6,774 bases of DNA, from assembly GCA_003648125.1 (NCBI GenBank), contig QMOE01000129.1, positions 1 through 6,774 of the forward strand, in the 5' to 3' direction. Numbering within the stretch: position 1 is the stretch's first letter; the number at the start of each line of letters is the position of its first letter. The position numbers and the translations under genes are program-made. Shown here in pieces: positions 2,257-6,774 of this stretch. The DNA is from Chloroflexota bacterium (GTDB taxonomy: Bacteria > Chloroflexota > Anaerolineae > B4-G1). The notes below the pieces were generated by a model that saw only the letters and a program-made list of their open reading frames with translations, had not been told where the DNA came from and did no database searches.

Positions 2257-3195
2257 ATGGTGGGAGAAAAACCTGTACCGGTCAAACAACGCCGTTGGCT
2301 GCGCCGCGAATCGAACCCGCTCTTGGTCAAAGAACTGCGGGGACGCATGCGCGGCGCGCGGGCGTTCGTTGTGTTGACCATCTACCTGTTGTTGTTGACT
2401 TGCTTTACCTCGCTCATCTACTACACCTACGTGACAACCACTCACAGGCCGGGCAGCGGGTCAGATATGGCGAACCTCGGCAAGATCATTTTCTCCAGCG
2501 TCGTCATCATCGAGATATTTATGGTTACGTTCATCACACCGGCCTTCACCGCCGGGGCCATCAGCGGCGAGCGGGAGCGCAAGACCTACGAGTTGCTGCG
2601 CACGACGCTCCTTTCCGCCCGCAAGTTGGTCTTTGGCAAACTTTCCTCTGCGCTGACGTATATGCTCTTGCTTGTCTTAGCGGCGGTGCCGCTGGAGGGT
2701 CTGGCATTTGTCCTGGGGGGCGTGGTGGCGAAGGAACTGGCGGTTGCTCTGCTCATTTTGATGGTGACCGCGTTGACCTTTGCCGTCATTGGTCTCTTGT
2801 TCTCTTCCTTCCTGCGCGCCACTCTTTCTGCCACTGTGTTGTCCTACATCGTCGCCCTGATGTTGACGGTTGGATTGCCCGTGTTGATGTTGATCTCGCT
2901 GGCTCTGCTGGACTCGTTTATGTACGACTTTGACCCGCCTGTTTGGATCGTGGAGGCAGGTTTGATGTACCTGGCCTTTTTCATCGTTGGCCTGAGCCCT
3001 GTCTCGGCGGCTGTGGGGACCGAGATTATGTTGGAGCAAGAGAATTCTATCTTGTACTTTTGGTACGATATAGATTCCATCCATCGTATCCCGATTCCTT
3101 CTTTCTGGATCATCTATGCGGTGATCTACCTGGTCATGGCGGCGATCTTGCTGCTGATAACCATGCTGCGGGTGCGCCAGCAGGAGCGGCGGTAA
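2257..3195 (+). CDS. ABC-2 type transporter permease (second of two)
   Basis: A 312-residue permease with about seven hydrophobic segments (roughly 36-58, 77-97, 132-154, 160-184, 190-218, 230-253, 282-304). The N-terminus has NPLLVKELRGRMRGARAF (20-37), a signature I associate with the cytoplasmic start of ABC-2 permeases. TAGAISGERERKTYELLRTT (98-117) matches the motif of the preceding permease and is the likely ATPase-contact loop. A strong AGGAGG (2248-2253) spans the stop of the previous gene. It is only 3 bases from the ATG at 2257 and 6 bases from an adjacent in-frame GTG at 2260, so translation may start at either codon. The TAA stop shares its last base with the ATG of the next gene (TAATG). 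It should pair with the upstream permease and ATPase. Confidence 0.92.
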   Translation: MVGEKPVPVKQRRWLRRESNPLLVKELRGRMRGARAFVVLTIYLLLLTCFTSLIYYTYVTTTHRPGSGSDMANLGKIIFSSVVIIEIFMVTFITPAFTAGAISGERERKTYELLRTTLLSARKLVFGKLSSALTYMLLLVLAAVPLEGLAFVLGGVVAKELAVALLILMVTALTFAVIGLLFSSFLRATLSATVLSYIVALMLTVGLPVLMLISLALLDSFMYDFDPPVWIVEAGLMYLAFFIVGLSPVSAAVGTEIMLEQENSILYFWYDIDSIHRIPIPSFWIIYAVIYLVMAAILLLITMLRVRQQERR

Positions 3196-4349
3196 TGACA
3201 AAACTCGGAGTCTACCTGCGCCGCTGGGGATTGCGGCTGCGGTTGGTCGAGAGCCTGACCTGGGGGCCGTGGGGTGGGACGGTTGGGTTGGGCCTGGGAT
3301 TGATGCTGGCGCTGGCGGCGCGGCTGTGGCCGCTGTTGATGGCCCGCTGGCTGGCCGCGCTAACTGGCTCATTCGCGCTCGCCGGCGTGATGATGGGGCT
3401 GACGGCCGCCTGGCTGTGGCCGCGCTCCTCGTTGCGACTGGCGCGTATCTTTGATCGTCGCTTTGGGCTGGCCGAGCGACTGACGACGGCGGTCGAGATT
3501 GGCGCGGACCGGCTGCGGGCCACGCCCGCGATGGCCCAGGCGCAGTTGACCGACACCCTGGACATCGCTGCCCGCGTTGACCCCGGCGCGATGCTGCCGC
3601 TGCGAGCCTCTCGTCGGGCGCTGCTCGCTTTTTGCGCCTTGGCGGCCGCGCTGGCCCTCTCGCTCTGGCTGCCGAATCCCCAGGAGGACGTGCTCTTGCA
3701 GCAGGCTGCCGTCCGCGAGGCTATTGAGGAGCAGATTGAGGATTTGGAGGCCGCGCGGGAGCAAGTCTCCGATGCCGAGGGATTGACCGAGGCCGAGCGG
3801 GAACTGCTCTTGCAGTCGCTGGAGGAGGCCATCGCTGCCCTCGACGAGGGCCGGGCCACGCCGGAGGAGGCGGTAGCGGCCCTTTCGGAAGCGGAGCGGT
3901 CGCTGGCCGAGTTGCAGGATCCGGGCGCCGCGACCGCGCGGGAGGGGCTGGAGCGCGCTGCTGGCGAGATGTCCGACTCCAAACTCACCCAGGATATCGC
4001 CGAGGCGTTGGCCGAGGGTGACTATCAAAAAGCGGCCCGCGAGTTGGCTTCCTTTAGCGGCAGCAGAGGGGAATCGCTGACCCGCGAGGAGGAACTCGAA
4101 CTGGCCCAGGAGTTGGCGCAAGCGGCGAAGGCATTGGCCGAAAGCGACCCCGCTCTGGCGCAGCAGTTGGCCCAGGCGGCCGAGGCCATCGAGCGCGGCG
4201 ACATTGCCGAGGCGCGTGAAGCTATCGGCCAGGCGGCGCAACAGATGGGGGAGGCGGGCGAGCGGGTGGAGCGCCAGGAAGCGGTCGAATCTGCGCTGAC
4301 AGAGTTGCAGGAGGGGCGCGAGCAGATCGCCCAGGCCGGCTCTACCTGA
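3195..4349 (+). CDS. Three-helix membrane protein with long helical/coiled-coil tail, cut by an in-frame UGA
   Basis: The open frame gives 384 residues. Two membrane helices lie at about 26-46 and 52-76. A conserved-looking cytoplasmic patch IFDRRFGLAERLTTAVE (85-101) follows, then a third helix at about 141-160. Residues from about 163 to 383 are Glu/Ala/Gln/Leu-rich and should be almost entirely helical, with repeats such as LAQELAQAAKALAESDPALA. This layout resembles the DUF4175-like proteins found beside ABC exporters or BatA/MoxR-type loci; that assignment is from memory and tentative. The start ATG overlaps the permease stop (TAATG) and has AGGAG at 3182-3186, so a longer frame reaching back into the permease gene is not the real start. 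The TGA at 4347-4349 is followed in the same frame by 128 codons with a family-like C-terminus, so the native protein was probably 513 residues. It is likely a membrane partner of the exporter. Confidence 0.8.
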   Translation: MTKLGVYLRRWGLRLRLVESLTWGPWGGTVGLGLGLMLALAARLWPLLMARWLAALTGSFALAGVMMGLTAAWLWPRSSLRLARIFDRRFGLAERLTTAVEIGADRLRATPAMAQAQLTDTLDIAARVDPGAMLPLRASRRALLAFCALAAALALSLWLPNPQEDVLLQQAAVREAIEEQIEDLEAAREQVSDAEGLTEAERELLLQSLEEAIAALDEGRATPEEAVAALSEAERSLAELQDPGAATAREGLERAAGEMSDSKLTQDIAEALAEGDYQKAARELASFSGSRGESLTREEELELAQELAQAAKALAESDPALAQQLAQAAEAIERGDIAEAREAIGQAAQQMGEAGERVERQEAVESALTELQEGREQIAQAGST

Positions 4350-4736
4350 CCGCGCACCGGACAGCCGCTCGGTCAGAGCGGCGCGGGTGGAGAGGCGGCC
4401 CAAGGGGCGGGGCAAGGACAGCAGGCGGGCGACGGTCAACAGCAGCAGCCCGGTCACAGCGAAGACTCTGGTACCGGCGCGCCCTACGCCGAGGTCTACG
4501 TACCCGGTCGCCTGGACGAGGAGGGGGCCGGCGTGAACGTGGGCCGCGAGGGAGACGAGGGAATCCAGGGCGGGGATGTGCCGCTTCCGGCCCCGCAGGG
4601 CGGTGGGGCGGCCGTGCCCTATCGCGAGGTCTATGCCGAGTACGCCGACCAGGCCGGCGCAGCTCTGGAGGGGAGCTATATTCCCCTGGGAATGAAACAG
4701 TACGTGCGAGATTATTTTAGTTCGTTGGAGCCATAA
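4350..4736 (+). pseudogene. Downstream part of the same membrane-protein gene, beyond the in-frame UGA
   Basis: In exactly the frame of the preceding gene, 128 codons remain open after the UGA, up to TAA at 4734-4736. They encode a Gly/Gln-rich linker, then two related blocks (PYAEVYVPGRLDEEG and PYREVYAEYADQAG), then an aromatic end (SYIPLGMKQYVR, DYFSSLEP). The low-complexity linker flows naturally from the upstream helical region, and the tail looks like a conserved terminus, so both halves are one gene. No convincing independent start exists. The GTG at 4533 has a GAGGAGGGG upstream, but those bases encode Asp-Glu-Glu-Gly and may be fortuitous. Explanations are a nonsense mutation, an assembly or read error, readthrough, or reinitiation. 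No frameshift is needed. HAD translation starts directly at 4737, so loss of translation here could also affect that gene. Confidence 0.7.
4364..4382 (+). repeat. Perfect 7-bp hairpin 14 bases after the in-frame UGA
   Basis: GCCGCTC (4364-4370) and GAGCGGC (4376-4382) are perfect reverse complements around a five-base loop GGTCA. A competing 7-bp stem, CTGACCG (4346-4352) with CGGTCAG (4370-4376), includes the UGA itself. No T-tract follows, so this is not a Rho-independent terminator. The apical loop starts with GG, 21 bases after the UGA, which falls in the geometry described for bacterial SECIS elements. In GC-rich DNA such hairpins are common by chance. Confidence 0.55.
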
Positions 4737-5421: not shown

Positions 5422-5817
5422 CTAGTTGCTTCCCAGGTCAAGGAGGTTTTCGATCTCGATCAACATCTGGGCCAGGGTAGGAGCGGGGGAATTGACGACG
5501 TGATTTTCGGCGCCAGCGTGCTTATGGTGGGGATGCGTGGCTAGGTTCAGGGAGCGGTGGTGATCAGTGTTGTCGTAGCGAAAAACAAATTTCCCATCTT
5601 CTTGTTGGTACTGATAGGCGTACATATATCGCTCAATACCAGCATTGGTGTCTATGAACTCGCGAAAGTGCAGTTGAGACCCGTCCAATAAGTAGAGAGC
5701 ACCCCGAACAAAACCAATGTGTGAACTGCGTTTGTCGTAGGTCACTCTGGCTGACTGAATGATGAGGCTTTCGTCAATAATTGCTCGCAGCGTGTCAAAG
5801 TATTCTTCAATCCGCAA
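5422..5817 (-). CDS. TumE-like (DUF6516) toxin of a type II-like toxin-antitoxin pair
   Basis: A 131-residue small basic, histidine-rich protein. Motifs I recognise from the TumE/DUF6516 family are LHFREFID (49-56), an aromatic strand YMYAYQYQ (64-71), and the family hallmark FRYDNTDHH (79-87) followed by HPHHKH (95-100). The molecular activity of the family is not obvious from the sequence; the conserved His/Asp/Arg cluster could be catalytic. The start is TTG at 5817, supported by AAGGAAG six bases upstream inside the antitoxin gene. No ATG is near, and the frame matches the family N-terminus (RIEEYFDTLR). It overlaps the upstream antitoxin by 11 bases, so toxin translation is probably coupled to and limited by antitoxin translation. 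Base composition is visibly AT-richer than the operon to the left, consistent with transfer. The family call is good; toxicity is inferred. Confidence 0.8.
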   Translation of the reverse strand: MRIEEYFDTLRAIIDESLIIQSARVTYDKRSSHIGFVRGALYLLDGSQLHFREFIDTNAGIERYMYAYQYQQEDGKFVFRYDNTDHHRSLNLATHPHHKHAGAENHVVNSPAPTLAQMLIEIENLLDLGSN

Positions 5818-6103
5818 TGCGGGCTTCCTTGAGCGTCTCGTGTTGTTGGCGCAATCGTAGCAGGGTGTGATATTCGCCGGCCCATTCTATGGTATCCAAA
5901 GTTTCTTCTATCTGATCCTGGGTCAGGCGTTGATAAAATTCTTTACTGCTCATGTTATATTGGTTCTCAAAATTCTGTAACCGGCGTTCTGTGCGCCGCA
6001 GCCCGGTTTTGATGACGCGCAATTGAATGCTCATTGCTGCTTCGAGCAGTGGGCGCAGGGCGATTGAGCCTGTCGGCGCTGTCACGATCACTTGAGTTGT
6101 CAT
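5807..6103 (-). CDS. Probable antitoxin paired with the TumE-like toxin
   Basis: A 98-residue protein encoded directly upstream of and overlapping the toxin gene. The C-terminal half is helical, with FENQYNMSSKEFYQRL (45-60) and DTIEWAGEYHTLLRLRQ (70-86). This pattern of a short FxxxYxMSSxEF helix followed by a (D/E)xxxWxGEY helix is what I recall from small partners of TumE/DUF6516 proteins. The N-terminus (TTQVIVTAPTGSIALRPLLEAA) may form a short strand-helix region; no clear DNA-binding fold is visible. I chose ATG at 6103 over the in-frame GTG at 6109, because that GTG lies within the GAGGTG ribosome-binding site (6112-6107), which has ideal 5-base spacing to the ATG. Function as antitoxin is inferred from order, size and overlap. 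It may also repress the promoter just upstream. Confidence 0.7.
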   Translation of the reverse strand: MTTQVIVTAPTGSIALRPLLEAAMSIQLRVIKTGLRRTERRLQNFENQYNMSSKEFYQRLTQDQIEETLDTIEWAGEYHTLLRLRQQHETLKEARIAD

Positions 6104-6120
6104 ATTCACCTCGTAGAAAG

Positions 6121-6149: not shown

Positions 6150-6163
6150 ATAGGAAGCGTGGC

Positions 6164-6774
6164 GTGAGTGAGGGGGCCGTTCGCTATACCGCCGCTGGCG
6201 GCGTTGTTGCGCACGATGACCGCGTGCTGGTGTTGCGCCGCTCCAACCTAACGTTTGAACAAGCAGAAAGCGCTGGTCGAGTAGCGCCCAAAGGGCGCGT
6301 ATCGAGACCAAGCGGCTTGGGCGAGACCCGCCCCCTTGGTTTCGATACGCCTTCGGCTACTCAACCCGCGGTCACTAGCCTTGGGTTGACGCGTATGTGC
6401 CCCAACTCCCGCTCTGTTTCCTCCAATGAGGGGGAGGTGCGGCTGCCCAAGGGACACGTTGACCCCGGCGAAACGGCGCGGGAAACCGCGCTGCGTGAGG
6501 TTCGTGAGGAGAGCGGCTATGCCGACTTGACGATAGAAGCCGACCTGGGCACGCAGGTGGTCGAGTTCGACTATGATGGACGGCACGTCGTGCGCAGCGA
6601 GCGGTATTTCCTGATGACGTTGGCGGACGATGCCAGTCCGCCCGGTGCTGGAGAGGAACAATTCGAGCCGGCCTGGCTCAACTGGGACGAGGCGCTGGCG
6701 GCGCTGACCTTTGAAGCGGAGCGGGAATGGGTGCGACGGGCGAGAGCAATGAACGAACCAATTCAGGAGGAAAA
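6164..6774 (+). CDS. Nudix hydrolase with a 60-residue in-frame repeat-encoded insertion (3' end outside window)
   Basis: From GTG at 6164 (AGGAAG at 6152-6157) the frame is open to the right edge, 203 codons. Residues 5-27 (AVRYTAAGGVVAHDD then RVLVLRRS) are a normal Nudix N-terminus. RLPKGHVDPGE then leads into the Nudix box G97-x5-E103-x7-R111-E112-V-R-E115-E116-S-G118-Y, all key residues present, so Mg-dependent hydrolysis of a nucleoside diphosphate-linked substrate is expected. Residues 28-87 are foreign: they derive from a palindromic element and its target duplication. Removing 180 bp gives RRSNEGEVRLPKGH, a natural Nudix sequence, and about 143 visible residues, close to a usual family length. 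The insert sits in the loop between two beta strands before the box, where extra length may be tolerated. The stop is not visible. Specificity cannot be assigned; the protein may be active, impaired or misfolded. Confidence 0.88.
   Translation, partial: MSEGAVRYTAAGGVVAHDDRVLVLRRSNLTFEQAESAGRVAPKGRVSRPSGLGETRPLGFDTPSATQPAVTSLGLTRMCPNSRSVSSNEGEVRLPKGHVDPGETARETALREVREESGYADLTIEADLGTQVVEFDYDGRHVVRSERYFLMTLADDASPPGAGEEQFEPAWLNWDEALAALTFEAEREWVRRARAMNEPIQEE
6241..6246 (+). repeat. Left copy of the 6-bp direct repeat (target-site duplication)
   Basis: CTCCAA lies immediately left of the element and is repeated exactly 180 bases to the right. It belongs to the native codons for Arg-Ser-Asn of the Nudix gene. 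Confidence 0.7.
6275..6309 (+). repeat. REP-like unit A
   Basis: GGTCGAGTAG, then a perfect hairpin GCGCCC-AAA-GGGCGC (6284-6298), then CGTATCGAGACC. It is an imperfect palindrome in itself, closing with GGTC/GACC. I recall similar GGTYGAGTAG...CGTATCGARACC repeats scattered through actinobacterial and related high-GC genomes. Confidence 0.7.
6338..6366 (-). repeat. REP-like unit B, inverted relative to unit A
   Basis: On the minus strand this reads GGTTGAGTAG, a short GCC-GAA-GGC hairpin, then CGTATCGAAACC, the same consensus as unit A. A and B pair with each other: 6298-6312 with 6335-6349 (15 pairs, one G-U) and 6275-6284 with 6357-6366 (9 of 10). The spacer holds another stem, GGGCG (6319-6323) with CGCCC (6329-6333). 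Confidence 0.7.
6421..6426 (+). repeat. Right copy of the 6-bp direct repeat (target-site duplication)
   Basis: The second CTCCAA, directly followed by the native continuation coding Glu-Gly-Glu-Val-Arg-Leu-Pro. Joining the gene at the two copies restores a typical Nudix sequence, which is why this is read as a target-site duplication and not a chance match. Confidence 0.7.
6765..6770 (+). promoter_or_regulatory. Strong ribosome-binding site for a gene starting just past the window
   Basis: AGGAGG is followed by AAAA at the window edge. The Nudix protein has reached about its usual length (143 residues without the insert), so its stop and the start of a following gene probably lie within a few bases beyond. 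Confidence 0.4.

Follow-up and report, generated by a model that had tools for sequence, protein, structure and literature searches.

The window analysed here, a stretch of 6,774 nucleotides from a Chloroflexota bacterium, carries at its right end an open reading frame for a Nudix hydrolase (6164..6772, plus strand) that begins with GTG, is preceded by AGGAAG at 6152-6157 and reaches the last bases of the window. The Nudix domain (PF00293) covers residues 92-191 of the translation, scoring 54.4 bits where the cut-off is 21.1. The Nudix box motif is GX5EX7REUXEEXGU, and in the translated frame the box, GHVDPGETARETALREVREESGY (6452..6520, plus strand), is intact. Between this gene and a HAD hydrolase gene, at 5422-6109 on the minus strand, sit a homologue of the toxin TumE (PF20126, 77.6 bits) and its small upstream partner (100 aa, no Pfam match). 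HAD and Nudix are seemingly adjacent or fused in some relatives, as in open frames of 401 aa (L168) and 368 aa (L171); a tail like that of the window's HAD protein precedes the Nudix part in L001, L004, L006 and L014, and both domains are present in the proteins P0017 and P0105. Elsewhere in the window a probable membrane protein with Ala/Glu-rich stretches has its otherwise unbroken frame (3195-4736) interrupted by a single in-frame TGA (4347-4349, plus strand), which may reflect a recent nonsense change, a sequence error or recoding.

A preliminary description of the locus had pointed to two copies of CTCCAA lying 180 bp apart and had read them as the ends of a palindromic, REP-like insert of 60 codons, free of stops in the gene's frame and followed by an intact Nudix box. 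The two copies lie at 6241-6246 and 6421-6426, the frame 6164-6772 is indeed open across the whole insert, and the box that follows is intact. The palindromic character was confirmed as well: the insert contains an inverted repeat whose arms (6297-6315 and 6332-6350) are 89% complementary, and 6241-6426 folds more strongly than all of 200 shuffled versions (z -4.15). The placing of the ends, and with it the count of 60 codons, did not hold, since the right terminal inverted repeat stops at 6397 and not at 6420, and a database homologue with the same insert, P0001, is five residues longer at the left edge. The REP-like label was half right, in that a REP-like core is present; the unit as a whole is not a bare REP and appears to be an IS231-like MITE enclosing that core. 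An Rfam scan gave just two microRNA matches, far under the gathering scores, and no similar DNA was found in a phage collection or a plasmid collection.

As it stands in the window, the body of the putative MITE spans 6248..6397 on the plus strand (150 nt, 50 codons, residues 29-78), a short unit without a transposase of its own. Its REP-like double palindrome core (6275..6366, plus strand) runs from GGTCGAGTAGC (6275-6285) to GCTACTCAACC (6356-6366) around the inner arms; a GTAG lies inside the stem of the palindrome (6281-6284), not at the hairpin end. The right terminal inverted repeat, CATACGCGTCAACCCAAGG (6379..6397, minus strand), occurs once in the window, against a chance expectation of 0.03 at up to three mismatches, and differs from the consensus built in this analysis by one mismatch, a C for T at position 15, which is one of the eight IS231 consensus positions. 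Its outer end provides an ATG (6395-6397) in the Nudix frame. An inverted repeat that starts with CAT reads as ATG outward, and a possible outward start codon may thus arise at either end of such insertions.

The left side is less complete. The full left inverted repeat is absent from the window, where only CCAACCTAACG (6243..6253, plus strand) is present, a likely remnant judging by the peptide of P0001 and by copies in another genome, G104. The left end therefore appears truncated: compared with P0001, its outer part seems to have gone in a deletion of 15 nt, and such a deletion between two CAACC strings would yield the window's form from a P0001-type form. An 11-nt target duplication probably has its left copy in the left flank CGCTCCAACC (6239..6248, plus strand), whose final base was removed by the deletion or overlaps with it, and its right copy in TGCCCCAACTC (6398..6408, plus strand). 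The target duplication in the window would accordingly be CGCTCCAACCC / TGCCCCAACTC; with the left copy completed from P0001, the flanks match at 8 of 11 positions, a value that 2.6% of mismatched flank pairs reach.

Comparison with relatives places the insert as a late addition. A scan of genome contigs yielded 116 Nudix relatives, and the insert is absent from all 80 of the best 80 that were kept, which indicates that it is derived. The usual form, as the preliminary description had expected, is an uninterrupted loop of four residues (e.g. RRPSRG-EVRLPKGH) that joins the second strand to the EVRLPKGH box; it was recognised by script in 64 of the 80 and by eye in three more, the other 13 differing mostly by few residues. 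Among the 120 listed homologues, out of 4214, a loop pattern found the four-residue form in 87 and a PPS[V/I]PP-type or similar loop in 11; 16, including P0002, were unmeasured by that pattern, 5 lacked the box pattern, and one, P0001, carries the insert.

P0001 is a protein of 203 aa from ENA, represented by five member sequences on two contigs (the longest one 14,979 nt), with the same insert in the same place plus the residues NPIRI. It is listed as full length with the same start as the window's ORF, and its residues 1-26 show one difference from the window. Its left edge reads NPIRINLT, the peptide expected from a complete repeat CATACGCATCAACCTAACG in the Nudix frame; IRINLT is the translation of ATA CGC ATC AAC CTA ACG, an inverted repeat of the MITE type. 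From this peptide we infer that the complete left inverted repeat in the DNA of P0001 would read CATACGCATCAACC, and that the intact mobile element there would measure about 163 nt plus the 11-nt duplication, the window's copy being 15 nt shorter. The second homologue, P0002, is a database gene call of 126 aa on a contig of 6774 nt. It is 100% identical to the window, starts at the ATG at 6395 and evidently represents the database's version of the window's own gene.

The search for other copies, proposed when the insert was first noticed, showed that the element belongs to a family. At E<=0.001, 29 of the 396 Anaerolineae genomes searched contain DNA that matches the insert, with at least 41 matches in G104 (40 of 127 candidates scored there). 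Copies of the composite MITE in G104 include L111 (91% identity over insert positions 19-112), L140 (84% over 2-104) and L139 (77% over 18-157). Together with L141 and L151, these three have inverted repeats close to CATRYGCRTCAASYTAASG at both ends, and their flanks match as target duplications at 11/11 (L111, L140 and L151), 10/11 (L141) and 9/11 positions (L139), so that three of the five have exact 11-bp duplications. Eight two-ended copies, 144-225 nt in length, were recovered from G104 and G133. By a pattern test the REP-like core occurs only in the copies from G104 and in one from G133 (L288), which marks the window element as a composite. The length of element plus 11 nt is divisible by three in three of these eight (L111, L139 and L141); L111 is open in one frame per strand, L288 in one frame, and the other six in none. 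Across the loci examined, 21 inverted-repeat pairs were scored (one locus counted twice, and some pairs probably spurious): in ten the 11-nt flanks agree at no fewer than 10 positions, as they do in 0.95% of mismatched flank pairs, the mean match being 7.4 against 3.8 for mismatched flanks. The remaining 11 of the 21, which include three of the five complete elements described below, fall short of 10/11 in direct register.

The ends also point to a transposase family. The IS231 subgroup of IS4 is described as having ends of the form CAT-------AA--TAA--- and target repeats of 10-12 bp (PMC2266710). The exact end pattern occurs in 29 of 396 genomes, against two matches overall for a reversed control. 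We found five complete insertion sequences that combine the MITE ends with a long frame, of 1408 bp (G158), 1417 bp (G250), 1432 bp (G303), 1516 bp (G077) and 1764 bp (G016). All five frames match the IS4 transposase model NF033592, four of them over the cut-off, and all five match DDE_Tnp_1. Among these elements an 11-bp duplication in direct register is seen in L334 and L337 only; the flanks of the others match at 6 (L308), 2 (L328, identical with L335) and 4 (L330, identical with L336) of 11 positions. The Y-x2-R-x3-E motif is present in two of the four transposases tested and was not found in those of L335 and L336. A search of G104 for a complete element with these ends gave none, and its three DDE_Tnp_1 genes are unframed by such ends. 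A link to RAYT was not supported: the repeat does not frame any of the three Y1_Tnp genes of G104, two of these loci having no arm within about 1.5 kb and the third a copy about 1.2 kb upstream.

Non-autonomous derivatives of IS231 exist in the form of MIC231-type cassettes. The window family would be a comparable case, with a right terminal inverted repeat that fits CAT-------AA--TAA with one mismatch and candidate autonomous partners in the elements of G016, G250, G303, G077 and G158. The family shares with the IS231 subgroup the ends CAT-------AA--TAA, duplications of about 11 bp and, in the complete elements, an IS4-type transposase (PMC2266710). In contrast to IS231, the window unit encloses a REP-like double palindrome and no transposase, its left end is truncated, and the genomes that bear copies belong to the Anaerolineae.

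Taken together, these data make it probable that a non-autonomous IS231/IS4-type MITE built around a REP-like core inserted into the loop of the Nudix gene, where it is likely nested in an older repeat. The element, with CAT...TCAA..TAA inverted repeats, an 11-bp target duplication and the double palindrome within, would have been mobilised in trans by an IS231/IS4-type transposase and would have landed in the loop directly before the Nudix box, which probably already held a repeat coding for PPSVPPN. An element of about 163 nt and a duplication of 11 nt add up to 174 nt (58 codons), a multiple of three, and one frame is free of stops, so that the gene would have stayed open; 15 nt, likewise divisible by three, would later have been lost from the window's copy. 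The loop lengths agree with this sequence of events if the element length derived for P0001 is used: its 65 extra residues correspond to 58 plus 7 (SRSVSPN), and those of the window to 53 plus 7. The product would be a Nudix enzyme with an unstructured loop that is tolerated since it lies outside the fold, its activity presumably retained, and a neutral, tolerated insertion is the most likely reading.

Structure prediction is consistent with this. An AlphaFold2 model based on 25 sequences has pLDDT values below 50 at residues 40-88 and above 90 in most blocks of the Nudix part, and its 50 listed Foldseek matches are led by Nudix enzymes, including Ap4A hydrolase and MutT1. The fold is thus predicted to be intact and the insert to be disordered, the insertion apparently lengthening a loop by some fifty flexible residues, which may be read through into the protein. 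It is unlikely, yet deserves to be weighed, that the gene is instead split, with a 126-aa protein made from the ATG at 6395 supplied by the right inverted repeat and the first strands separated from it. P0002 is precisely this protein, and the strong hairpin could impede translation; the full frame is nevertheless open, AGGAAG stands ahead of the GTG, and the full-length P0001 keeps the same start with a nearly unchanged N-terminus.

That the added loop has been recruited and is under selection for a function such as partner binding or localisation seems to us rather improbable. The observation in its favour is that window and P0001 differ at none of 50 element residues and at 9 of 148 others (10 gapped positions left out), with P 0.04 by the flank rate. 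For two sequences only, Fisher's test (0.12) is not significant, adjacent changes in the flank (136-138) suggest recombination, and the insert is predicted to be disordered. Moreover, a region search with residues 26-88 found the element peptide in no protein of similar length but P0001 (1 of 13 candidates). The difference of 0/50 versus 9/148 is suggestive only, and compatible with constraint or with recent origin.

A REP-like element that went straight into RRSNEGEV with a 6-bp CTCCAA duplication, as the preliminary description had it, is quite improbable. Two features speak for this version: the copies are exactly 180 bp apart, so that deletion leaves the usual four-residue loop, and this loop is found in P0022 and P0046, which are near the window on the tree. 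Yet the right inverted repeat ends 23 nt ahead of the second CTCCAA, P0001 has 65 and not 60 extra residues and a P for S at the second copy, and the copies in G104 with the same ends show 11-bp duplications. An assembly chimera or sequencing artefact, conceivable for one single window sequence, has practically negligible probability, since P0001 carries the insert at the same site on other contigs.

Under the MITE reading, the residues that follow the right inverted repeat have a history of their own. If the target duplication CGCTCCAACCC / TGCCCCAACTC is right, the gene earlier read RRSN-SRSVSSN-EGEVRL; the form before the insertion was then probably RRSN-SRSVSSN-EGEV, itself a decayed repeat, and not the RRSNEGEV restored previously. 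The residues NSRSVSSN (6404..6427, plus strand) are a probable remnant of an older, decayed loop repeat of the PPSVPPN type, at a site that holds a PPS-type or similar loop in 11 of 120 relatives, and such a repeat probably explains SRSVSSN (6407-6427) better than a CTCCAA duplication does. The nearest non-carrier on the tree, P0007 (path 0.69), has the loop PNPPSVPPNGGEEGG (PPSVPPN), and the likeness of N-SRSVSSN to its N-PPSVPPN suggests decay of an older repeat. P0022, with a plain four-residue loop, is practically as near (0.70), which weakens the argument for nesting; P0046 is likewise close (0.78). The tree, of 105 rows with few columns and many open forks, has the window in no starred fork, and P0008 dropped out of it. 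Two starred forks separate P0065, P0101 and P0103 from P0084, a split that agrees with such loops having been gained more than once, although losses may also have played a part. Nesting is favoured by the inverted-repeat insertions L139 (G104) and L313 (G201), both of which adjoin a CCCCCCTCxGTCCCCCC repeat (2 of 18 pattern matches in the loci examined), and repeats of this type may be preferred targets. Overall, we regard nesting in an earlier repeat as likely but less certain than the insertion itself.

The core repeat is not confined to the MITE. In G104 the pattern of the palindrome arm gave 169 matches (92+77), against 1 (0+1) for the reversed control; 100 of these were listed, and 72 distinct copies were examined after C15:52381 had been left out and copies with identical surroundings merged. 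For ten of the 72 the surrounding frame is 150 codons or longer and leaves 30 or more on each side of the copy, a test to which gene-breaking copies are invisible and which gives no rate of in-frame survival. In four of the ten the frame has a Pfam domain over the cut-off, namely Der (L233), PrmC (L251), lactate permease (L280) and a transglutaminase-like protein (L234, minus strand); two frames pass through the copy in L234, and the Pfam domains are found only in the minus-strand one. L278 and L279 match Wzt_C and YfhO below the curated cut-offs, and L268, L281, L243 and L248, for which no Pfam family was found, may be chance frames. Aligned to solved chains, Der jumps from residue 69 to 95 as the chain goes from 83 to 88, and PrmC from 118 to 188 as the chain goes from 121 to 122; no solved relative of the lactate permease was found. 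By eye, the framed copies show the core without inverted repeats, which makes them kin of the core and not of the whole MITE; the MITE itself, bounded by terminal inverted repeats, was seen in frame in the Nudix gene only (window and P0001). Tentatively, and with more doubt than confidence, unrelated palindromic families of the Anaerolineae (PPSVPPxGGE-coding repeats, REP-like cores and IS231-type MITEs) might be thought to enter genes repeatedly in frame, even der and prmC, with some loops, such as that preceding the Nudix box in this gene, serving as landing pads in which each repeat is targeted by the next and loops are built stepwise. In the minus-strand gene at L234, the REP-like core and a PPSVPPN-coding repeat are both in frame.

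Protein-coding mobile repeats have precedents. Intragenic REPs inside ORFs have been published for many bacteria, in-frame GTAG/CGTC REPs have been described from many genes, with different REPs near the same recB site of X. campestris and X. oryzae, and the Chloroflexi too are reported to have GTAG REPs (PMC3733652); MITE-ORF fusions and the Rickettsia palindromic elements have been reviewed (PMC10969869), and the enterobacterial RU-1/2/3 are MITE-like repeats with open frames within genes (PMC2759123). The preliminary description knew of no such case for this repeat type. With in-frame GTAG/CGTC REPs published (PMC3733652) and MITE-ORF fusions reviewed (PMC10969869), its novelty was overestimated, and the present case joins already described in-frame REPs and MITEs. 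The likeness it drew to the Rickettsia palindromic elements is apt, a palindromic mobile repeat being in frame in the Nudix gene: both are short palindromic repeats in frame in genes of conserved function (PMC10969869, PMC3733652), and occurrence in frame in genes of unrelated function was found for the related core repeat in G104. In contrast to them, the inverted repeats and target duplications of the window unit indicate a specific transposase family. With the intragenic GTAG/CGTC REPs it shares in-frame REP peptides, for which the recB site common to two species is on record (PMC3733652); unlike these, it is a MITE bounded by terminal inverted repeats, and the Y1_Tnp genes of G104 are unframed by the repeat. 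RU-1/2/3 are alike by description in being MITE-like open-frame repeats in genes, but the hosts differ (PMC2759123). A search by title and abstract start, which covered little of the subscription literature, listed no paper on IS231-type MITEs inside Chloroflexota genes.

The locus would add an IS231-type MITE of Chloroflexota to the range of protein-coding mobile repeats, and one enzyme loop offers a testable two-step case, an older repeat followed by a nested MITE. Together with the der and prmC insertions of G104, it provides a system for asking how often and why selfish repeats become peptide, and whether repeats with runs of G or C are preferred targets. Two further observations concern the Nudix relatives: in P0116 another Nudix loop is enlarged by a tandem VGQAFEPAEP repeat, and P0003-P0006, kin of the window enzyme, are tandem two-domain Nudix proteins of 275-286 aa.
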